DNA of 64,000 bases from Aeriscardovia sp. (GTDB lineage: Bacteria > Actinomycetota > Actinomycetes > Actinomycetales > Bifidobacteriaceae): positions 1-64,000 of the forward strand of contig JAFYHY010000029.1 of the NCBI GenBank assembly GCA_017538895.1. Direction: 5' to 3'. The notes below the pieces were generated by a model. It saw only the letters and a list, made by a program, of their open reading frames with translations. It made no database searches and was not told the origin of the DNA. Of this stretch, positions 35,649 to 49,421 are shown in pieces (positions within the stretch are counted from its first letter, which is position 1; each line of letters begins with the position of its first letter). The position numbers and the translations under genes were made by a program.

Positions 35649-35713
35649 ATTGGTATAACGTGTGAAATAGTTTATATTTGCAATTCCTTTTGCAGCAGAA
35701 AGCTGGAGGTATC

Positions 35714-36415
35714 ATGGGCATACTTGACCGTTTCGAGAAAAGCGTGGAACACGGCGTTAATGGAATGTTCTCGAAATTCGGCTCGAAAGATCTTCAGCCA
35801 GTTGACTTGTCAAGCGCGTTAGAGCGAGAGATCGATGCGCAGACAATGAAAGTTGGCCGTGACCGTACTGTCGCCCCAAATGAGTATCGTTTCGAGCTCT
35901 CAACACCAGATTTTGATCGTATTGAATCATGGGGTTCTGAAGCTCTAGCTAATGAATTAGCTGATAAGCTAACCAAATATGCGGAAACGCAACATTATGC
36001 TTTCGTTGGTCCAGTTGTTGTGATCTTTGAAGAGAACCTCGACCTCAACAAAGGTGATTTCCAACTCACCAGCGAATCAGTACAAGGTAACGCGGCCCCA
36101 GTGACAGACCACAGTGAATCCAAAGATTTCCCTGTACTAGAAATTTCAGGTCGTCAGTATTTATTGACTGCTATGAAAACTGTCATTGGCCGCGGTTCCA
36201 ACTGCGACATCGTTATTGATGATCCTGGTATTTCCCGTAAACATCTTGAAATTGATATTACTAAGAACGGTGTTATTGCACGTGATTTAGGATCTACCAA
36301 CGGTACTTACGTTGAAGGTCATCTTGTCCCTGCTGCTACACTGCTTGATGGAAATACTATTACTATTGGTCGTACACGCATTCTTTTCTGGGCATCCTCT
36401 GAGCCACGTGACTAA
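35714..36415 (+). CDS. fhaA: FhaA: DUF3662 and FHA-domain protein
   Basis: A 233-residue cytoplasmic protein: DUF3662 domain (about 1-115, MGILDRFEKSVEHGVNGMFSK) and C-terminal FHA domain (about 145-230) with VIGRGSNCDIVIDDPGISRKH and DLGSTNGTYV, which binds phosphothreonine. In mycobacteria FhaA binds the phosphorylated pseudokinase domain of MviN and slows wall synthesis. Here the linker between domains is short. GGAGG lies 4 nt before the ATG at 35714. First gene of the seven-gene signalling and cell-wall operon. Confidence 0.92.
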   Translation: MGILDRFEKSVEHGVNGMFSKFGSKDLQPVDLSSALEREIDAQTMKVGRDRTVAPNEYRFELSTPDFDRIESWGSEALANELADKLTKYAETQHYAFVGPVVVIFEENLDLNKGDFQLTSESVQGNAAPVTDHSESKDFPVLEISGRQYLLTAMKTVIGRGSNCDIVIDDPGISRKHLEIDITKNGVIARDLGSTNGTYVEGHLVPAATLLDGNTITIGRTRILFWASSEPRD

Positions 36416-36475
36416 GAACGTCAGACAAGAAAAGCTAACGAGATAGTTCAATCGCGCATACAGAGTTAGGACATC

Positions 36476-37084
36476 ATGACAGAGCTTACTTTCGCAATCC
36501 TGAAATACTGCTTCGTATGTGCGATTCTTTTATTTGCGTGGCTTGCGGTTCGATCTCTTTATCGAGATGTTGCTGAGTTTCTTCCAGCACGTGACCGCAC
36601 CCATGTAAAAAAAACTAAAACTCGTCAGCGTGTAGCAGTCCCTCAACAATCATCTACAGAGTCAGCTACGCATTCTGCAGCACCACGACATACAGCATCA
36701 ACGCGGTTAGATAATCCACCACATCCTGAGATGCCAAGTTTAGCATCGATTGTTACTAATACAGTCAATACGTCCTCGTCGCGTAGCTCAAAACCAACTC
36801 TTTTAGTTCTCATTGATGGACCTCGCGCTGGCGCCACTTTTCCTTTATCCACTCAGCCAATCACTTTAGGACGAAGTACAACAAACACTGTTGTATTGAA
36901 CGATGAATACGTTTCCTCTCATCATGCTCGCCTCTATCTTGATCCAAGAACAAAAGTATGGATGCTTGAGGATACAGGTTCAACTAACGGGACTTATGTC
37001 AATGAGTCACGTATCCTTGATGTCATTGCTCTTGAGGCACGCATCCCAGTTCGTATTGGTGCAACAACATTCGAATTGAGGTGA
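36476..37084 (+). CDS. fhaB: FhaB (FipA): membrane-anchored FHA protein
   Basis: A 202-residue protein: one TM at about 6-25, a Ser/Thr-rich linker (about 45-110) and an FHA domain (about 118-200) with TLGRSTTNTVVLNDEYVSSHH and DTGSTNGTYV. The linker is a likely target of PknA or PknB. Its start follows fhaA by 60 bp, and its stop abuts the pstP start region. Confidence 0.92.
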   Translation: MTELTFAILKYCFVCAILLFAWLAVRSLYRDVAEFLPARDRTHVKKTKTRQRVAVPQQSSTESATHSAAPRHTASTRLDNPPHPEMPSLASIVTNTVNTSSSRSSKPTLLVLIDGPRAGATFPLSTQPITLGRSTTNTVVLNDEYVSSHHARLYLDPRTKVWMLEDTGSTNGTYVNESRILDVIALEARIPVRIGATTFELR

Positions 37085-37089
37085 ACGGA

Positions 37090-38628
37090 ATGGCTGAGGC
37101 TCGTCTCCGCTTATCATCCACATTAGTCAGCGATATCGGTCATGTTCGTCATAATAATCAGGATTCTGGTTTCGCTGGTTCACGTATCATAGCCGTCGCT
37201 GACGGCATGGGTGGTCATGCTGGTGGTGATACCGCATCCACTGTCGCAATACGTACTCTCAGTCATCTTGAACGCGTACGTCAGCATCGTTCCAATATCG
37301 AGTCAGTTGCCATTACCTTAGAAAAATCTATTCTTGCTGCACATGATGCGATTGTTGGGAAAGCCAAAAAAGAACAACAATTATCAGGCATGGGTACTAC
37401 CGTCGATGCTGTTTGTTTGATAAGAAATTATTGGGTCCTAGCACATATTGGTGATTCACGTGCCTATCTCTTACGTAATGGACGTCTGATCCGTGCTACT
37501 AAAGACCATAGTTATGTTCAACATTTAATTGACACACATCGTATCACTTTAGCCGAAGCAAAAAATCATCCTCAACGTAGCGTTGTCATGCGTGTTTTAG
37601 GTGATTTTGATATCGACCCACATCCTGATATTTCTATTCGACAAGCTCAACCAGGAGATCGCTGGCTTTTATGCTCCGATGGGCTTTCAGGTCCATTAGA
37701 AGATGATACTATTCGTGAAATTCTCCTTGAAGAACGAGATCGCGAACAGTGCGCTCAAAAGTTAGTCAATGCTGCTCTCCGAGCAGGCAGCACTGATAAT
37801 GTAACTGCTGTTGTTGGTGATGCAACTCATATTGATTCTACGCTACGATCAAACACTAGTACTCTTCAAACACCATTAGTTGGTGGAGCTGCAGCCAATT
37901 CCTTACCAAGCATAGCGGATATAGTTCACCGTCCTGTTGTCTCTGCCCCGCACTTAAAAGAGGTAGCTTCACCAGCGCAAAAAGCTGCATTCTTATTAGC
38001 AGATATTCCACTTGATGAGGCTCCTAAAGAACAAGCGCCTCAACAACCTCCTGCAGGACTTAACTTACCTGGTATTAACCGTCTCGAACAAGGACAACAA
38101 ATTGCAGTACCAGTTATTGAGCATCCAGATGAAGCTGTTCCAGATACCGGTGAGATTCCAATTGTAACGAAATCAGATGGTTCCATTGAATCAGATCCAT
38201 CAACTTCTATTGTTACTGAAGCTATTTCACGTCAAAAAGAACAAGATGCGAAAAACCTTATGCATCAAAAGAAAAGAAAACGCATTCGCCATCTTCTAAT
38301 TGTTCTCCTCCTCTGTCTTGTTCTTGGCGGAGGTACTGGCTTCATCGCCCATTGGACTCAATCCCAATATTATTTAGGGGAATCAAATGGCTATGTAGCC
38401 ATTTACCAAGGCGTACCAACCAATATCTTCGGTATGTCATTAAGTCATGAAGTAAGTACCAGTACTGTTAAGGTTGCTAGCTTACCAGAAAGCTGGCAAC
38501 AGCAGCTATCGGATGGCATTAGCGCTGGATCCTATCAAATTGCGGAAGAACATATTAAAACCATAGAAAATCAAGCGCAATCATTAAAAAACCAATCCAC
38601 AACAGATGATGAAGGAGTGACAAAATGA
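37090..38628 (+). CDS. pstP: PstP: PP2C-type Ser/Thr phosphatase
   Basis: A 512-residue protein: PPM catalytic domain (about 1-240) with metal-binding and motif residues SDIGHVRHNNQDSG, VADGMGGHAGGD, GMGTTV, IGDSRAYLLR, SDGLSG and DNVTAVV; then a Pro/Glu-rich linker, TM at about 400-422 and a short external part of about 90 residues. It reverses PknA/PknB phosphorylation. I start at ATG 37090 because GAGGTGA is 5 nt upstream; a GTG at 37081 is embedded in that site. It overlaps rodA by 4 bp (ATGA). Confidence 0.94.
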   Translation: MAEARLRLSSTLVSDIGHVRHNNQDSGFAGSRIIAVADGMGGHAGGDTASTVAIRTLSHLERVRQHRSNIESVAITLEKSILAAHDAIVGKAKKEQQLSGMGTTVDAVCLIRNYWVLAHIGDSRAYLLRNGRLIRATKDHSYVQHLIDTHRITLAEAKNHPQRSVVMRVLGDFDIDPHPDISIRQAQPGDRWLLCSDGLSGPLEDDTIREILLEERDREQCAQKLVNAALRAGSTDNVTAVVGDATHIDSTLRSNTSTLQTPLVGGAAANSLPSIADIVHRPVVSAPHLKEVASPAQKAAFLLADIPLDEAPKEQAPQQPPAGLNLPGINRLEQGQQIAVPVIEHPDEAVPDTGEIPIVTKSDGSIESDPSTSIVTEAISRQKEQDAKNLMHQKKRKRIRHLLIVLLLCLVLGGGTGFIAHWTQSQYYLGESNGYVAIYQGVPTNIFGMSLSHEVSTSTVKVASLPESWQQQLSDGISAGSYQIAEEHIKTIENQAQSLKNQSTTDDEGVTK

Positions 38629-40391
38629 CTGATCCTAATGTCGAATCATCAGAAGCACCACAATCATTCCAACCATCTGACAGTTCACATCATTCAACTG
38701 ATGAACAGCAATTGTTATTGAGCGCGTTTGCTACAGGATCACCAACACAGACAACTGTCTCACCATCTGAGAAAACAGATAATGAGCATAGATCCCATAA
38801 AATACAAGATCTTTTAGGACGCTCATTTCTTCTTGCTTTTGCACTCTTACTGGGATTATTCCTTTTCTGGCAAATGATGATGCGAGTGCATGGGTCCATT
38901 CCACGAAATTATATTATTCTTGGTTTGCTTGATGCTGGATTGTGTATTGTTGTCCTTGTTTTGCTAAATCATCGGCTTCCTAAGAGCGCTAAATCGTTGA
39001 TGCCTATTTGTGTGCTGTTGTCGGATATTGGGATTGCAGAAATTACTCGTATTGATTATGAACAGATAAGTAATGGTGTTAATTCTGATATTGGTCTTCG
39101 TCAAATGGTGTGGTTTGCGTTTGCATTAGGTATTTCGGCACTGTTGATTGTTTTTTTGCATGATTATCGTTCGCTTCGCAAGATCTCGTATGCGTGTATG
39201 GCAATTGGTCTTGCTTTATTGATTTGTCCGATGATTCCTGGACTTGGTGAAGATATTAACGGTGCTCAAGTATGGATTCATATTGGCCCTTTTAGTTGTC
39301 AGCCATCAGAGTTTGCGAAACTATTCCTTGCTATTTTCTTTGCCGCGTATCTTTTTGATCGGCGTGACAGTCTTGCTGTTGGTGGCAAGGTTTTTATGAA
39401 AATTCGTTGGCCTCGGTTGCGTGATTTTGGGCCATTAGCAGCGGTATGGATTATTTCTATGCTTGTTCTCATTATGGAACATGATTTAGGAATTTCGCTG
39501 ATGCTTTTTGCGATGTATGTCGGTATGCTTTATGTCGCGTCTAATCGTAAGAGTTGGCTGCTTATTGGAGCTGTTGCCTTTATTATTGGTGTGATTCTGG
39601 CTGATCGTATCTTTCCTAACTTTGCTAACCGTGTCACCATTTGGTTAAATCCTTTTTCACAGGCTTTGTATGACAAATCCTATGGTGGGTCCTATCAAAT
39701 TGTTCAAGGGCTTTTTGGTTTAGCAGCGGGAGGTCTTTTTGGAATAGGTATGGGTGCTGGACATCCTACCATTACCCCATTTGCGAATTCAGATTTTATT
39801 TATGCTTCTCTAGGAGAAGAAACCGGTTTTGTTACCCTTGTTGTTCTTCTTATCTTGTATCTCACCATCATTGCTACTGGTTTTGTTGCTGCAATGCATG
39901 TTACTGATGGCTTTGGAAAGTTATTAGCCTCTGGTTTAGCTTTTTCAATGGCATTTCAAATTTTTACCATTGTTGGTGGTATTACTCTGGTGATCCCATT
40001 AACTGGTGTGACGTTACCGTATATTGCTGCAGGTGGGTCCAGTTTGATTGCAAATTGGATTCTTGCCATTCTTATTCTGATTATTGATAATGCGGCACAT
40101 GTTGGTCATGTGCCACAAGTCACCTGGCATGGATTTAAGCAAACACCGCGCACAGTTGGTGATGATACATCTGTTACTGATACGATGAGTCTTGAAGCTA
40201 TTAAGGAGTATGCTGAAGCACAAAAGAATGCTTCAGGACGTCATGGTGCGCATCGTGCTGTTGACAATGAGATAACCCATAGTACGTCATCTTCTCTCTC
40301 TGATGACAGCAGCACTAGTCTGATTCCTCAACTGGATTCTGAAAGTTCTGATTTTGATTTGACTGATTGGGAGAGTACACGTCATGAATAG
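38625..40391 (+). CDS. rodA: SEDS-family glycosyltransferase RodA/FtsW
   Basis: A 588-residue, 10-TM peptidoglycan polymerase. Family marks are GAQVWIHIGPFSCQPSEFAK, MEHDLGISLMLF (with the catalytic-loop Asp near it), YQIVQGLFGLAAGGLFGIGMG and FANSDFIYASLGEETGF. Both ends carry cytoplasmic extensions (about 60 and 90 residues, Ser/Thr/Asp-rich) that could be kinase targets. It would pair with a class B PBP; the next gene, its usual partner, looks catalytically dead. AAGGAG lies 8 nt before the ATG; overlaps pstP by 4 bp and pbpA by 8 bp. Confidence 0.93.
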   Translation: MTDPNVESSEAPQSFQPSDSSHHSTDEQQLLLSAFATGSPTQTTVSPSEKTDNEHRSHKIQDLLGRSFLLAFALLLGLFLFWQMMMRVHGSIPRNYIILGLLDAGLCIVVLVLLNHRLPKSAKSLMPICVLLSDIGIAEITRIDYEQISNGVNSDIGLRQMVWFAFALGISALLIVFLHDYRSLRKISYACMAIGLALLICPMIPGLGEDINGAQVWIHIGPFSCQPSEFAKLFLAIFFAAYLFDRRDSLAVGGKVFMKIRWPRLRDFGPLAAVWIISMLVLIMEHDLGISLMLFAMYVGMLYVASNRKSWLLIGAVAFIIGVILADRIFPNFANRVTIWLNPFSQALYDKSYGGSYQIVQGLFGLAAGGLFGIGMGAGHPTITPFANSDFIYASLGEETGFVTLVVLLILYLTIIATGFVAAMHVTDGFGKLLASGLAFSMAFQIFTIVGGITLVIPLTGVTLPYIAAGGSSLIANWILAILILIIDNAAHVGHVPQVTWHGFKQTPRTVGDDTSVTDTMSLEAIKEYAEAQKNASGRHGAHRAVDNEITHSTSSSLSDDSSTSLIPQLDSESSDFDLTDWESTRHE

Positions 40392-41850
40392 ATCATTACG
40401 CCAGCTTTTTATTGCTGTTATTACTCTCTTTGCCATTATCATTGCTTCAACATTATGGTGGACTGTTTTCGATGCTGAATCATTGAATAAAGATCCACGT
40501 AATACGCGAGCTTTTTATCATGAATTGAGTGAACCACGTGGCGAAATCCTTGCTGCCAATGGGACTGTTTTAGCTGAATCGGTTAAAGATAATGACACGT
40601 TTAAATATCAGCGTAAATATTCAAATGGTCCGCTTTATGCGCCTATTACTGGATTTTTCTCGGTAGCTACACGCGCTAATGTTGGTCTCGAGGCTTCTGA
40701 AAACCAGCTGTTAAGTGGTAATACTGATTCTCAATGGTTAGGTCGTGTTCGAAGTCTTTTCACTGGTCGAGAAGATAGTGGGGCTAGTGTAGAGACGTCT
40801 ATTCAAACTGCATTACAACAGCTTGGTGGAAAACTCTTAAATGGGGAAACTGGCGCCATTGTTGCTCTTGATCCGCATACAGGAAAGATTCTTACTCTTG
40901 TTGAATCACCAAGTTATGATCCTAATTTGCTAGCGACACATGATGTTGCACAAGCAAATTCCGTATATCAGACTTTGATTGATGAGTCGCCATCACCTCT
41001 GGTGGATAAGGCAACCAAGCAACGTTTTGCAGCATCATCAACATTTAATTTGATTACTGCGGCAGCAGCTCTCAGTACTGGACGATATACTGATTCAACG
41101 TCTATTCCAGCAACCTCAACGTATACTGTACCCGGCACAAATGATGTCATTACAAATGATATTTATTGGAGTGGGTACAGTACCACTAGTGCAATGAGTT
41201 TATCAAATGCGTTTGCGTATGGTTCAAGTACAGCATTCGCCCAACTTGGAAATGCTCTCGGGTATCAGACTCTTGCTGATGAAGCAGCAAAATTTGGGTT
41301 TGGATCGACTGTAACGATTGATGGGACACCATCAGTTGGTACACCAATGACTGCCCTACCATCAACCTTTACTACCGATCAAAGCGCTAATAGTGTTGCA
41401 CTTGCTGCTATCGGTCAAAGTGGTGTTGATGTTACTCCATTAGAAGAAGCCATGATGGTTTCAGCTGTTGCAGACCAAGGAACTATTATGAAACCAACCT
41501 TGGTGAATCGTATCCGTTCTGCGAACCTCACTCTTCTATCTCAGACAACGCCAACAGTGTTCGCAAAACCATTAACCTCTGCAGAAGCGACTTCACTCTC
41601 ATCAATGATGGCGTCACTTGTATCAACGCAAGCTCCAAATCTTGAACTACCAAATGCTAAAATTGCAGCTGTCACTGGGTCAAGTGTCAATATGTCCAAT
41701 ACTCAGAATTCGAATACATGGAGCGTAGGATTTGCTCCAGTCAATAATCCACAAATTGTTGTCTCCGTTTTCCTTGAGAATACGCATGGAACTGCAATAG
41801 AAACTGCAGCACCAATTATGCAACAAATGATGGAAGAGGCCCTGAAATGA
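40384..41850 (+). CDS. pbpA: PbpA-type transpeptidase-fold protein lacking catalytic motifs
   Basis: A 488-residue protein in the position of PbpA (FtsI-type PBP): TM at about 7-29, dimerisation-type region with SEPRGEILAANGTVLAES (about 49-66), and the transpeptidase fold from about 155 (GAIVALDPHTGKIL). At the SxxK site the sequence reads S219-T-F-N222, at SxN it reads S281-S-T283, and at KTGT it reads V430-T-G-S433. All three active-site motifs therefore lack key residues (Lys, Asn, Lys), though the surrounding fold (FNLITAAAAL, WSVGFAPVNNPQIVVSVF) is kept and the frame is intact. It may be a structural activator of RodA rather than an enzyme. Overlaps pknA by 4 bp. Confidence 0.85.
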   Translation: MNRSLRQLFIAVITLFAIIIASTLWWTVFDAESLNKDPRNTRAFYHELSEPRGEILAANGTVLAESVKDNDTFKYQRKYSNGPLYAPITGFFSVATRANVGLEASENQLLSGNTDSQWLGRVRSLFTGREDSGASVETSIQTALQQLGGKLLNGETGAIVALDPHTGKILTLVESPSYDPNLLATHDVAQANSVYQTLIDESPSPLVDKATKQRFAASSTFNLITAAAALSTGRYTDSTSIPATSTYTVPGTNDVITNDIYWSGYSTTSAMSLSNAFAYGSSTAFAQLGNALGYQTLADEAAKFGFGSTVTIDGTPSVGTPMTALPSTFTTDQSANSVALAAIGQSGVDVTPLEEAMMVSAVADQGTIMKPTLVNRIRSANLTLLSQTTPTVFAKPLTSAEATSLSSMMASLVSTQAPNLELPNAKIAAVTGSSVNMSNTQNSNTWSVGFAPVNNPQIVVSVFLENTHGTAIETAAPIMQQMMEEALK

Positions 41851-42839
41851 AGTTAATTGAGGGGCAAATTATTCATCGCCGTTATCGTCTTGATCAACGT
41901 ATCGCTAAAGGTGGTATGGGTGAAGTATGGCGCGCCTATGATTTAGAACTCAGTCGCGCTGTGGCTATTAAAGCTCTGCGCTCTGATCTGATTAATGATC
42001 ATAGCCGCATCGCCCGTCTTCGCACAGAAGCACATAATTCTGCTAATCTTGCTCACCCTAATATTGCTGCATTGTTCGAATACTATGAACATGATGGCAT
42101 TGGATTCCTAGTTATGGAGTATGTACCAAGTCCATCGCTTGCTCAGATTTATAAGACAGAAGGCCGTTTACCAGCGTCGCGCCTTATTCCGATTCTGATC
42201 CAAGTAGCTCGTGGACTTTATGTTGCACATTCACATGGTGTGATTCATCGTGATGTTAAGCCAGCTAATATTATGGTTTCTCAATCTAGTGAGGTAAAAA
42301 TCACTGACTTTGGTGTGAGTTATTCAGCAAACCAAGCACAAATTACCCAAGCTGGAATGGTAGTTGGAACAGCGCAATATATTTCTCCAGAACAAGCCCA
42401 AGGCCATCAAGCCACACCACAATCAGATATCTATTCTCTTGGTATTGTTGCTTATGAAGGACTTGCTGGGTATCGTCCATTTACTGGCGCTACACCCGTT
42501 GATATTGCTGCAGCGCAGGTGAATGACCCTGTACCACCATTACCAGATGATGTTAATCCTCGATTAGCAGCATATGTGATGCGTCTTTTGGAAAAGGAAC
42601 CTCGAAAACGTCCGCATGATGCTTTGGAAGTTTCACGTGATCTCAGTCGCTTAGAAAGAGAAGTTCTTGATGTCGAGACAGGATCTTTCCCCGTTATATC
42701 AGGAGGATCTCATGTTCGACGGATCAGTAGTACACCTCATCGCATGAAATATCATGTTCATTCACAGGCAAGTGAAGAGTATGATTTGTCGTCATATGAT
42801 GACCTATTGATTGATCATTCAGATTTTAGAGAGGAATAA
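41847..42839 (+). CDS. pknA: Ser/Thr protein kinase PknA
   Basis: A 330-residue Hanks-type kinase: kinase domain (about 8-265) with Gly loop IAKGGMGEVW, VAIKAL lysine, HRDVKPANIM catalytic loop, DFGVSY and GTAQYISPEQ; a short juxtamembrane-like tail follows and no TM is visible, unlike mycobacterial PknA, so it may be soluble. It probably phosphorylates division and wall proteins including the FHA proteins nearby. ATGA overlap with pbpA. Confidence 0.93.
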   Translation: MKLIEGQIIHRRYRLDQRIAKGGMGEVWRAYDLELSRAVAIKALRSDLINDHSRIARLRTEAHNSANLAHPNIAALFEYYEHDGIGFLVMEYVPSPSLAQIYKTEGRLPASRLIPILIQVARGLYVAHSHGVIHRDVKPANIMVSQSSEVKITDFGVSYSANQAQITQAGMVVGTAQYISPEQAQGHQATPQSDIYSLGIVAYEGLAGYRPFTGATPVDIAAAQVNDPVPPLPDDVNPRLAAYVMRLLEKEPRKRPHDALEVSRDLSRLEREVLDVETGSFPVISGGSHVRRISSTPHRMKYHVHSQASEEYDLSSYDDLLIDHSDFREE

Positions 42840-42847
42840 AGGTCAAG

Positions 42848-44962
42848 ATGAGTCAATATATTCCTAAGACACTTGCCCAAGGTCGATACCAGGTCGGGCA
42901 AACTGTCGGTCATGGTGGAATGGCCGAGGTACATCTTGGGACTGACACGCGATTAGGCCGCCAAGTTGCTATTAAAATTATGCGGTCTGATCTCGCTAAC
43001 GACCAGGTATTCCTTGCTCGTTTCCGTCGTGAAGCCCATTCAGTTGCACAATTGAATAACCCAAATATCGTTTCTATTTACGATACCGGTGAAGAAACCT
43101 TCACTGTCTCTAGCGGATCAACAGAAAAAGCTCCATACATTATTATGGAGTACGTTAAAGGTCAAACTCTTCGCGACATCATTAAAGAAAATGGTGCTTT
43201 AAGCCAACGCGATTCAGAACAAATCATCATTGGTGTTCTGAATGCGCTTGAATATTCGCATCGCATGGGCATTATTCACCGCGATATCAAACCAGGCAAT
43301 ATTATGATTAGCGACCAAGGCGTCGTTAAAGTCATGGATTTTGGTATTGCACGCGCTTTAGATGATTCCGCAACCACCATGACACAATCACAAGGTGTTG
43401 TTGGTACTGCTCAATATCTCTCTCCTGAACAGGCACGCGGAGAAACTGTTGATATGCGTTCTGACTTGTATTCAGCAGGATGCGTTCTCTATGAAATGTT
43501 GACTGGACGACCACCATTTACTGGCGACTCTCCTGTTGCAATCGCTTATCAACACGTATCACAGATCGCAACTCCTCCATCAGTGTTAGTCCCAGGCTTA
43601 CCTAAGATCTGGGATTCTATCATTGCAAAAGCAATGGCAAAAGATCGTCAGAATCGATATTCCACTGCTATTGAATTTAAGCGTGATATTACAGCAGTCA
43701 TGAATGGTGGTCATATTTCCGCTGAAGGATATAATCCACTCACTGATATTAATTGGAAGAAATCTGGATCTGAGACAATGACAATGCCTCAGACGTCAGC
43801 CACCATGCCTGTTACAGCGATTAGTCCTTCTTCACCAGCTCCAATTTCTGTTCCAGCTGTCTCAACAGCCACCAGTACTAATATTAGTGCTTATCCGGCA
43901 ACAACAGCTCTTGCCGATGAAGTAGAACCTAAAAAGCATCATCGTGCAGGATGGATCATTGTTGCTATTATCGCTATTATCGCTTTAGCAGGCGGAGGAT
44001 GGTACTTTATTAATCAAACCTCAACCGCTACCATTCCAACAATCACAGCTGGAATGTCTGCCGCTCAAGCAAAAACAGCGATCACTAATGCTGGTTTTAC
44101 TTTCCAAGAACAAAGCGACGGTAATACCGATAAGCCTAAAGGAACTTTCATTAAACAGAATCCAGCAGGCGGTACTTCTGCGGCCAAAGGAACAACTGTC
44201 ACTGTTTGGTTCTCCTCTGGCCCAGCATCATCAGTTATTCCTGATGTTGCTGGCATGACTGAATCTGAAGCAGAACAATTATTACAAGCATCTGGATTCA
44301 CCGTCAGCTCCGTCAACGTTGAGAATTCTTCTACTGTTGCACGTAACCATGTCACACGTACCGATCCTGTTGCTGGTTCATCTGAATCTGAAGGTTCCAG
44401 CGTCATTCTCTATATCTCTAGCGGTCAAATGATAATGCCATCTGTCACTGGTAAATCACAATCAGATGCTCAAACTGAATTACAGAAAAGCGGTTTTTCA
44501 ATTACTATTCAGCAACAAAGTAGTAGCACTGTAGCAAAAGGAAATGTTATCAGCACAAATCCAGCTGCTGGTACAACAGTTTCTCAAGGATCAATGGTTA
44601 CCATGATCGTTAGTAGTGGTCCGCAGCAAACAAATGTGCCTGCTGGTTTAAGCGGTCAAAGTGTTGCTACCGTTCGTAGTGCTCTTGAAGCTTTAGGATT
44701 GAAAATTACCGTTAATCCATCAAATGCTCAGGATAATTGGATAGTAAACTCGATTATTGGTCAAAATAATACTAATCTAACAAGTAATGGTGGAAGTGTT
44801 ACAGCTGGCTCTACAGTAACACTTACTGCTCAGCAACCTTCATCCTCTTCCAATCAGAGCATAACAAATTCCAATAGCTCCTCCAGTTCGCAGTCATCTA
44901 ATAGTTCATCGAATAGTTCCTCAACAGGATCGAATTCTTCGAATCATTCCTCAACTCAATAA
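42848..44962 (+). CDS. pknB: Ser/Thr protein kinase PknB with four PASTA domains
   Basis: A 704-residue receptor kinase: cytoplasmic kinase (about 10-280; GHGGMAEVHLG, VAIKIM, HRDIKPGNIM, DFGIARA, GTAQYLSPEQ), a juxtamembrane Ser/Thr-rich linker, TM at about 367-388, four PASTA repeats (about 394-660) that sense muropeptides or lipid II, and a Ser/Asn-rich tail of about 45 residues. The fourth PASTA is the most divergent. AAAGGT precedes the ATG. It is the last gene of the operon and is followed by a 24-bp perfect hairpin. Confidence 0.95.
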   Translation: MSQYIPKTLAQGRYQVGQTVGHGGMAEVHLGTDTRLGRQVAIKIMRSDLANDQVFLARFRREAHSVAQLNNPNIVSIYDTGEETFTVSSGSTEKAPYIIMEYVKGQTLRDIIKENGALSQRDSEQIIIGVLNALEYSHRMGIIHRDIKPGNIMISDQGVVKVMDFGIARALDDSATTMTQSQGVVGTAQYLSPEQARGETVDMRSDLYSAGCVLYEMLTGRPPFTGDSPVAIAYQHVSQIATPPSVLVPGLPKIWDSIIAKAMAKDRQNRYSTAIEFKRDITAVMNGGHISAEGYNPLTDINWKKSGSETMTMPQTSATMPVTAISPSSPAPISVPAVSTATSTNISAYPATTALADEVEPKKHHRAGWIIVAIIAIIALAGGGWYFINQTSTATIPTITAGMSAAQAKTAITNAGFTFQEQSDGNTDKPKGTFIKQNPAGGTSAAKGTTVTVWFSSGPASSVIPDVAGMTESEAEQLLQASGFTVSSVNVENSSTVARNHVTRTDPVAGSSESEGSSVILYISSGQMIMPSVTGKSQSDAQTELQKSGFSITIQQQSSSTVAKGNVISTNPAAGTTVSQGSMVTMIVSSGPQQTNVPAGLSGQSVATVRSALEALGLKITVNPSNAQDNWIVNSIIGQNNTNLTSNGGSVTAGSTVTLTAQQPSSSSNQSITNSNSSSSSQSSNSSSNSSSTGSNSSNHSSTQ

Positions 44963-46923: not shown

Positions 46924-48102
46924 TTAGTTTTGTACTGCTACATAGTTAGATGCATGACTGAGATAAGGTATATTCTCTGCTAACCATGGGTAACCCCAAT
47001 TAAACATGGCTAAAATAGCAATTATTAAAAGCAAGATTAGTAATACCCATCGAATCATCTCGACACCAGGCTGAATCTTCAGCAAGGCTGAGTATAACCC
47101 TGGTTCGGATTGTTTCTTTTTCTTACGTCGCTTTGTTTTTACATGACTAATGGATGTCTGACCCAAGGCATTTACATGACGACGATCAAAGGACGGCCAT
47201 CGCCATACCAATGCTGCTGCAAGAAAAATGACAATGTAAGCAGCAAGAATCCACCAAATCAGAGTTGATAATGGTGGAATATATTCACTCCATGCATTTG
47301 TATTTTCTGGGAAGCTTACAGTACCATTTGAATTCTGGGTCGCGAGTGCAGCTGGAATACCGTCCTTAACGTAGGCCCAATATTTGAAGGTAGCGTATGC
47401 TACCCAACGGTGTGTTGGAATGCCGTATCGTGGTGTGCATGTTGTTAAGGTGAGTAATCGTTCTGTTGGTTTTGCGCCTGGTTCATTGGGAACTGGAAGA
47501 ATAACTTCGGTGTCAGATGGTAAAACAATCTGTTTATTTTGATAGGAATAAACGTACCAATATTCATTAGTACGAATAATGATTTCATCACCTTTTTGTA
47601 GTTCAGCCACATCACCTAGTGGTGATCCGTATCCTTCACGGTGTCCTGCTATACCAACATTGCCGATGGCTCCGAACATTGGTGTTTGTGTATAATGTCC
47701 AACTCCGTGTCGGTTTAATTGTTCGAGTGTGGTGCCTTGGACGATTAGTCGTTTGTATTCATGGCTGAATCGTGGGATGTATAGTTCGCCGAGTACTTCA
47801 CCTGCATGACTTGGTTGCGGAAGAATTGGTGGATTTCCACTTTGTGGTTGAGCAATTTTATAGGATCCGGATTCTGTTTTTCCTGGAGTAACCCATGATG
47901 TAGAGGTAAATTGTTTATTCTGTTCTTGCTCTGAAACAACTCCAGTCCACCATAATTGCCAAATGATATAGAAGGCGCATAATACAGCTAGAGTTAGAAG
48001 AATCTCACCTAACACTCCGGCAATAATGCCGCTTTTAGAATAATGTTTGTGCGGCACTAGGCTCTGAGCTCGACCATCATCGCTCCTTTTATTTTGGACC
48101 AC
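46924..48102 (-). CDS. Class E sortase
   Basis: A 392-residue membrane transpeptidase: cytoplasmic N-terminus, TM at about 24-52, sortase domain with catalytic His154 (GIAGHREGYG), Cys222 (LTLTTCTP) and Arg232 (YGIPTHRW), then two further hydrophobic segments (about 279-305 and 350-370). Class E enzymes of high-GC Gram-positives attach proteins with LAxTG-like signals. No sortase substrate is next to it; the partial secreted protein at 1-370 is a possible but unproven one. Divergent from crgA. Confidence 0.88.
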   Translation of the reverse strand: MVQNKRSDDGRAQSLVPHKHYSKSGIIAGVLGEILLTLAVLCAFYIIWQLWWTGVVSEQEQNKQFTSTSWVTPGKTESGSYKIAQPQSGNPPILPQPSHAGEVLGELYIPRFSHEYKRLIVQGTTLEQLNRHGVGHYTQTPMFGAIGNVGIAGHREGYGSPLGDVAELQKGDEIIIRTNEYWYVYSYQNKQIVLPSDTEVILPVPNEPGAKPTERLLTLTTCTPRYGIPTHRWVAYATFKYWAYVKDGIPAALATQNSNGTVSFPENTNAWSEYIPPLSTLIWWILAAYIVIFLAAALVWRWPSFDRRHVNALGQTSISHVKTKRRKKKKQSEPGLYSALLKIQPGVEMIRWVLLILLLIIAILAMFNWGYPWLAENIPYLSHASNYVAVQN

Positions 48103-48243: not shown

Positions 48244-48681
48244 ATGACTCAAGATGACGATAAAGTCACTTCTGCGCTGCAATCAGACAGCAGTGAGATA
48301 ACGAGTGAACAATCTACCTCTTCTTCAGTAACAAACGGTACGTCAGCGGATGATCTTAATAATGCCTTTGATCTTGATAAAGTTGATGAACTTCTGAATA
48401 AAGATCCGAACTCTGAGGATTTGCCAAAAAGTCTTCAGCGTTTAATGAATCGTCAGCAGGATCAAACAAAGCGTGTTGAAAAAACAATTGCACAAGCTAA
48501 AACGAACCATCGTTGGTTTGTCCCTACATTTATTGTCCTGCTTGTTGTTGGTTTAGCATGGGTTGTGACTAATTACATTACTGCTGGCTCATATCCTATT
48601 CCAAAGATTGGTAATTGGAATCTTTTGATTGGATTTGCCATTATGCTTGTCGGCTTTATTATGACGATGTGGTGGAATTAA
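48244..48681 (+). CDS. crgA: Cell division protein CrgA
   Basis: A 145-residue protein: acidic Ser/Thr-rich N-terminus (about 1-75), then two TMs with the conserved short linker, RWFVPTFIVLLVVGLAWVVTNY and GNWNLLIGFAIMLVGFIMTMWW (key residues only). CrgA is an actinobacterial divisome membrane protein that interacts with FtsZ, FtsI and others. The ATG at 48244 has GGGAGGG about 5 nt upstream. The N-terminal extension is longer than in mycobacteria. It overlaps the convergent rhomboid gene by 4 bp. Confidence 0.9.
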   Translation: MTQDDDKVTSALQSDSSEITSEQSTSSSVTNGTSADDLNNAFDLDKVDELLNKDPNSEDLPKSLQRLMNRQQDQTKRVEKTIAQAKTNHRWFVPTFIVLLVVGLAWVVTNYITAGSYPIPKIGNWNLLIGFAIMLVGFIMTMWWN

Positions 48682-49421
48682 GCTAAATGACTCATTGGCA
48701 GAGCGAACTGATATCCCACAGCAAATAAACCATAGGTGAGAAGGATAAGCATTCCTACGTTCATGTTTATCCGATATATCTTTTGCTTTTTACGTGGTTG
48801 AAAAACGTATAAATTCTCGCATGCCATGAGAATGAAACCGATAATACATCCTCCAATATGTGATTGCCAGGCAATACCGCCGGCTAATAGTGGTTCTGCA
48901 AAAATAATAATTAATAAAATAATGAGTGATCGGATCTGGAACCCAAGTTTTCTATAGAGTACAAGAAGAGTTCCGCACAAACCTAATATGGCGCCTGACG
49001 CACCATATACTGATAGATAAATACCATTACTTCCAGCTGCGTATTTGCTCCATAGCATCATAGCAAAGTTACTGCCAATTCCTGATAAGAAATAGATGGC
49101 TAAATATTCAGCATGTCCAAGATATCGTTCAACAGTAGGCCCAATAAGCCATAACATCATCATGTTAAAAGTGAGATGCCAAATATTAGGAGCATGCAAG
49201 AATAATGATGTCACTGCAGTCCAAGGTTTTGTCACAAACAAGAAAGGTGTAAAAGCTCCGTTTGTGATAATAGTTGAGAAGAATGATGGAGCAATATAGT
49301 AACTGATCATTTCAAAAAGCCATATTGCAGTACAGGCAATGATAAGAAACCATGTTGCTACGGGCTTGTTCATACGCCATTGTTCACGAAGATAATTGAC
49401 ATAGTATTGATACTGTTTCAT
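48678..49421 (-). CDS. Rhomboid-family intramembrane serine protease
   Basis: A 247-residue, 6-7-TM protein. Landmarks are HLTFNMMMLWLIGP (the HxxxN segment), YGASGAILGL with the catalytic Ser near residue 147 and WQSHIGGCIIGF with the catalytic His near 187. It cleaves TM helices of unknown substrates. Placement next to crgA is common in actinobacteria. Converges on crgA with overlapping stops. Confidence 0.9.
   Translation of the reverse strand: MKQYQYYVNYLREQWRMNKPVATWFLIIACTAIWLFEMISYYIAPSFFSTIITNGAFTPFLFVTKPWTAVTSLFLHAPNIWHLTFNMMMLWLIGPTVERYLGHAEYLAIYFLSGIGSNFAMMLWSKYAAGSNGIYLSVYGASGAILGLCGTLLVLYRKLGFQIRSLIILLIIIFAEPLLAGGIAWQSHIGGCIIGFILMACENLYVFQPRKKQKIYRINMNVGMLILLTYGLFAVGYQFALPMSHLA

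Follow-up and report, generated by a model that had tools for sequence, protein, structure and literature searches.

A class B penicillin-binding protein with altered catalytic motifs appears to be retained as a RodA partner in two genera of Bifidobacteriaceae

The question raised by this locus is what a class B penicillin-binding protein (bPBP) does for the cell once its catalytic residues have been replaced. bPBPs activate their SEDS partners via the pedestal domain (PMC6207328, PMC10257715, PMC8078798), and whether these proteins have an essential role apart from cross-linking has so far been tested mainly with engineered mutants. The window, which is the whole 64,000-nucleotide stretch of Aeriscardovia sp. 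DNA that was analyzed, comes from a 1.41-Mb draft genome that is 96% complete and carries pbpA at 40384..41850 on the + strand. A sequence-only reading had proposed that the PbpA encoded there lost its active-site motifs and persists as a partner with a structural or regulatory role.

Frame 1 of pbpA is a single open frame of 488 amino acids, and the designation of its product as a bPBP pseudo-transpeptidase draws on the open frame, Pfam and an alignment with PDB sequences. The protein has the domains expected of the PbpA orthologue group of bPBPs, namely a membrane helix at the N-terminus (read off the sequence rather than called by a dedicated predictor), a pedestal/dimerization domain and a full transpeptidase domain. 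PBP_dimer_2 (PF21922) matched over the whole model with 99 bits against a cut-off of 27, as did Transpeptidase (PF00905) with 135 bits against a cut-off of 22.1 (model positions 1-299 of 299), and M. tuberculosis PbpA (3lo7/3un7) aligned with residues 35-487 at E ~1e-64. The membrane helix and pedestal half spans residues 1-155 (40384..40848, +), and the match to PF00905 covers 40852..41835 (+). Since an AlphaFold2 model of PbpA built from a five-sequence alignment had a mean pLDDT of only 36, it was kept out of arguments on the fold, and these draw on the sequence alignment with 3lo7. Sequences distantly resembling bPBPs were also found by tblastn with the window's PbpA in 43 phage records (MT836712, MT835478 and others), at about 24-27% identity to it among the matches listed.

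The frame and the operon position had been described as intact, and both descriptions were borne out. On the + strand the order is fhaA (FhaA_N and FHA domains) and fhaB (FHA domain) at 35678..37084, pstP (PP2C phosphatase, 37081..38628), rodA (SEDS glycan polymerase, 38625..40391), pbpA, pknA (Ser/Thr kinase, 41847..42839), the start of which overlaps the pbpA stop, and pknB (Ser/Thr kinase with PASTA repeats, 42848..44962); from fhaB onward the starts overlap or nearly abut. The order pstP-rodA-pbpA-pknA-pknB is the one known for mycobacteria. Downstream of the operon, on the - strand, are genes for a sortase (46924-48102) and a rhomboid protease (48678-49421).

The alignment with 3lo7/3un7 over residues 35-487 leaves no doubt where the catalytic motifs should lie, and the positions were set by M. 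tuberculosis PbpA together with 168 relatives that have intact motifs. As the sequence-only reading had it, the SxxK site reads STFN (residues 219-222, 41038..41049, +; TCA ACA TTT AAT) where M. tuberculosis PbpA has STFK, and the KTGT site reads VTGS (residues 430-433, 41671..41682, +) where the mycobacterial protein has KTGT. The SxN site had been read as SST, which sits one residue too late; the aligned triplet is GSS (residues 280-282, 41221..41229, +), corresponding to SCN in M. tuberculosis. The claim that all three motifs are lost thus holds in that every triad is altered, but it overstates the case in that the nucleophile Ser219 persists in the window species and SSN persists in two sister species. 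A genuine set of motifs elsewhere in the chain would have overturned the loss, and no second usable triad was found in PbpA: the sole SxxK is SLNK at residue 33, beside the membrane helix, the sole K/H-[STA]-G is HTG at residue 165, outside the active-site order, and K-[ST]-G is absent throughout the window's protein. Recoding does not explain the lost SxxK lysine, as its codon is AAT (Asn) in the window's pbpA and AAT/AAC or GAC in all nine of the altered genes described below.

To date the loss, as had been suggested, 88 PbpA sequences from 16 genera of Bifidobacteriaceae were aligned. S..K, S.N and K[ST]GT were intact in 79 of them, from 14 genera, and all three motifs were intact in 89 of 89 PbpA sequences from the rest of the class. 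The nine exceptions are exactly two genera, the window's own (g1; three of three species) and g12 (all six surveyed species with a PbpA match), and the SxxK lysine and the K[ST]G triad are absent from every one of them. The g1 species read STFN/GSS/VTGS (window), AVFD/SSN/VIGS and AVFN/SSN/VMGS, the last two (G010 and G024) having Ala at the nucleophile and retaining SSN at SxN. The six g12 proteins read STFN/SSS/SVMAQ and also retain Ser219. Four residues past the position aligned with KTG they have a Lys, and one larger alignment sets it on the motif column; since this displaced Lys is followed by Asp, K[ST]G is absent under either alignment.

All of the genomes are draft assemblies, and at least two are named MAGs. 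The other two g1 species match MAGs labelled 'Aeriscardovia sp.' (RGIG2325 from goat duodenum and RGIG6 from dairy cattle abomasum), and the neighboring genus g3, which includes 'uncultured Aeriscardovia', has a normal PbpA. The six g12 genomes are small (0.6-0.9 Mb) and 94-100% complete. The less complete genomes G003 (g4), G039 (g16) and G059 (g12), at 76-89%, gave no good match to PbpA; either the gene is truly absent from them or that part of the sequence is missing. Neither chance nor an error of assembly can account for the altered motifs, because the loss is common to nine independent genomes and absent from the other 79 members of the family and the 89 from the class, and the intact motifs of those 79 likewise dispose of a bPBP that is relaxed family-wide.

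Trees of RodA and PknA join g1 and g12 (FastTree SH 0.999; IQ-TREE 100/100), as does an unrooted tree of six division-cluster proteins (98/96). In AU tests with RodA and PknA, a grouping of g12 with g4, g5 and g9, which are deep genera, was not rejected (p=0.099), and a pairing of g1 with g3 that leaves g12 outside was rejected (p=0.032). Because both sets of trees group g1 with g12, the simplest reading, which we favor, is that the motifs would have been lost once, in the common ancestor of these two genera.

One role that such a protein may have kept is activation of RodA. We consider it likely that PbpA in g1 and g12 acts as a non-catalytic activator or scaffold for RodA, with cross-linking supplied in trans. 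Rates in the two halves of the protein, estimated with the topology fixed and 100 site bootstraps, are consistent with such a role. The transpeptidase/pedestal rate ratio was 1.82 in the altered clade versus 1.12 in intact genera, a ratio of ratios of 1.68 (95% 1.31-2.06), so that, measured against the pedestal half, the transpeptidase domain has sped up about 1.7-fold over expectation; the pedestal/RodA ratio itself is unchanged (0.89, 0.69-1.17). Of the residues that intact PbpA sequences conserve at 95% or more, g1 keeps 96% in the pedestal half but only 75% in the transpeptidase half, whereas intact control genera keep 92-100% and 92-99%, respectively. The corresponding figures for g12 are 77% and 65%; the pedestal has therefore drifted there too, which counts against an activator role.

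The transpeptidase domain of the altered clade is relaxed, yet its dN/dS is about 0.1. As it is still under purifying selection, the domain must have some role that the idea of a pure activator leaves unspecified. One alternative is that the inactive domain binds stem peptides unreactively and reports the status of the wall to RodA or to PknA/PknB. Such a sensor would account for a domain that is relaxed but constrained, and two kinases, a PP2C phosphatase and FHA proteins do share the pbpA operon; we nevertheless regard it as unlikely, as rodA, pbpA and pknA also adjoin in genera with an active PbpA. PbpA may also be under the control of the adjacent kinases, as the sequence-only reading suggested. 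If PbpA is instead a RodA activator or scaffold, the transpeptidase fold, being relaxed but not free, has probably been kept for a structural purpose, as a lid or a contact surface.

The remaining wall-synthesis machinery fits the proposal that cross-linking relies on another PBP. The window's genome encodes three proteins with a Transpeptidase domain, which are PbpA, FtsI (SIGK/SSN/KSGT) and one class A PBP (SAFK/SHN/KTGT), the latter two with intact motifs; a second bPBP, for which a check had been advised, is thus present. RodA retains QP[SC]EFAK and NSDFIY, which we take to hold residues implicated in SEDS polymerization, in all nine species with an altered PbpA; in the window these are QPSEFAK (E229, K232) and NSDFIY (D390).

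The set is smaller in g12. Its six genomes each encode only two Transpeptidase-domain proteins, the altered PbpA and a class A PBP (SSFK/SHN/KSGT), and RodA is the sole SEDS protein. The order of genes around pbpA is identical to that in the window, and the division clusters of three g12 genomes, G036 (L199), G012 (L200) and G025 (L201), are syntenic with that of g1 except that rsmH is followed by the next ORF with no ftsI in between, and murD by murG with no ftsW. Since the flanking genes abut, this is real gene loss and no assembly gap, and RodA and the altered PbpA are therefore the only SEDS-bPBP pair in g12. FtsZ is present. No YkuD L,D-transpeptidase was found in g12 and g1 has one or two YkuD proteins, so a general takeover by L,D-transpeptidases is rejected. 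An ORF of about 327 amino acids is also kept in the division cluster of the family and adjoins ftsI where that gene is present (L202:12759-13739, L203:8667-9662, L199:6580-7560); it had no Pfam match at E 0.01, and its position suggests that it is possibly a degenerate Mur-ligase-like protein.

Another alternative is that PbpA has lost its function and is on its way out, with nothing but its location among the kinase genes of the operon to retain it. The faster transpeptidase half and the long g12 branch would agree with decay, but the history of the genes makes it very unlikely. All nine altered genes are full-length open frames, none interrupted, and pairwise dN/dS between species that had already lost the motifs is 0.06-0.14 (NG86 and YN00); dS for these pairs ranges from 0.24 to about 1.5. 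These values indicate purifying selection after loss of the catalytic residues, as in a pseudoenzyme, and with the unbroken frames they rule out a pseudogene, in which frameshifts, stops and neutral rates are expected. Moreover, the pedestal half evolves normally relative to RodA, and genomes of 0.6-0.9 Mb shed ftsI, ftsW and YkuD proteins yet kept pbpA. Less probable still is acylation or hydrolysis through a rearranged site, using Ser219 with another base or the displaced lysine of g12; Ser219 is indeed retained in the window species and g12, and that lysine falls on the motif in one alignment, but Ala replaces the nucleophile in two of the g1 species, the SxxK lysine is Asn or Asp in all nine and the window's protein has no K-[ST]-G.

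The best explanation, judged from sequence comparisons, is that PbpA of g1 and g12 would be a natural pseudo-transpeptidase, and it appears to be a bPBP orthologue that fails as a catalyst yet keeps its partner role. The proposed retention as a partner gains support from the clade-wide loss, purifying selection, the unchanged pedestal rate, the relaxed transpeptidase domain, the intact RodA site and retention in g12 without ftsI and ftsW. PbpA would still use its membrane helix and pedestal domain to bind RodA and would license glycan polymerization by RodA allosterically, as bPBPs do, but would be unable to form an acyl-enzyme or to cross-link. The strands that RodA makes would then have to be cross-linked in trans, a task that would fall to FtsI, the class A PBP or both in the window's genus and to the only class A PBP in g12. 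We lean slightly towards a broader view, in which this lineage has permanently split its elongation synthase into RodA with a bPBP that never cross-links and a class A PBP that acts in trans, and in which the RodA/PbpA pair, FtsW and FtsI being absent, is the only SEDS system of g12. If that is the case, g12 cells would grow and divide with RodA, a pseudo-PBP and a single class A PBP.

A natural catalytically inactive bPBP kept by selection was not found in the open-access literature, where engineered or drug-inhibited ones were. A clade of gut-dwelling relatives of bifidobacteria in which the catalytic residues were removed and the protein kept would offer natural separation-of-function variants and show which partner surfaces RodA needs. 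Beta-lactams are also predicted to be unable to acylate such an elongation partner, and the set of wall-synthesis proteins suggested by the g12 genomes is unusually small.

Among known systems, M. tuberculosis PbpA with RodA is the closest in descent, being orthologous across residues 35-487, with its domains in matching order and its gene within pstP-rodA-pbpA-pknA-pknB, but its catalytic triads are intact and those of the window's PbpA are all altered. RodA-PBP2 of E. coli and T. thermophilus resembles the proposed pair in the mechanism suggested for it, in which the bPBP activates RodA allosterically by way of its pedestal (PMC6207328, PMC10257715), although there an active transpeptidase is coupled to polymerization. 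PBP3 and SpoVD of C. difficile are class B PBPs with catalysis-independent functions, and in that organism a class A PBP drives division without FtsW/FtsI, which resembles the set left in g12 (PMC12713402, PMC12154710); their wild types, however, are treated as catalytic and are inactive only as laboratory mutants. Losing bPBP transpeptidation is not always harmless. In its native background S. aureus cannot do without the transpeptidase activity of PBP1 itself (PMC9426605), and work on that protein and on E. coli indicates that the loss can do harm unless another PBP compensates (PMC9426605, PMC8078798). Such compensation is seen in B. subtilis, where catalytically inactivated PBP2B still supports division and PBP3 cross-links (PMC8078798, PMC12713402). 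Like the proposed PbpA, inactivated PBP2B is a non-cross-linking bPBP needed by its SEDS partner while another PBP transpeptidates, but it is engineered and belongs to the divisome, whereas PbpA of g1 and g12 is natural, fixed across two genera and paired with RodA.
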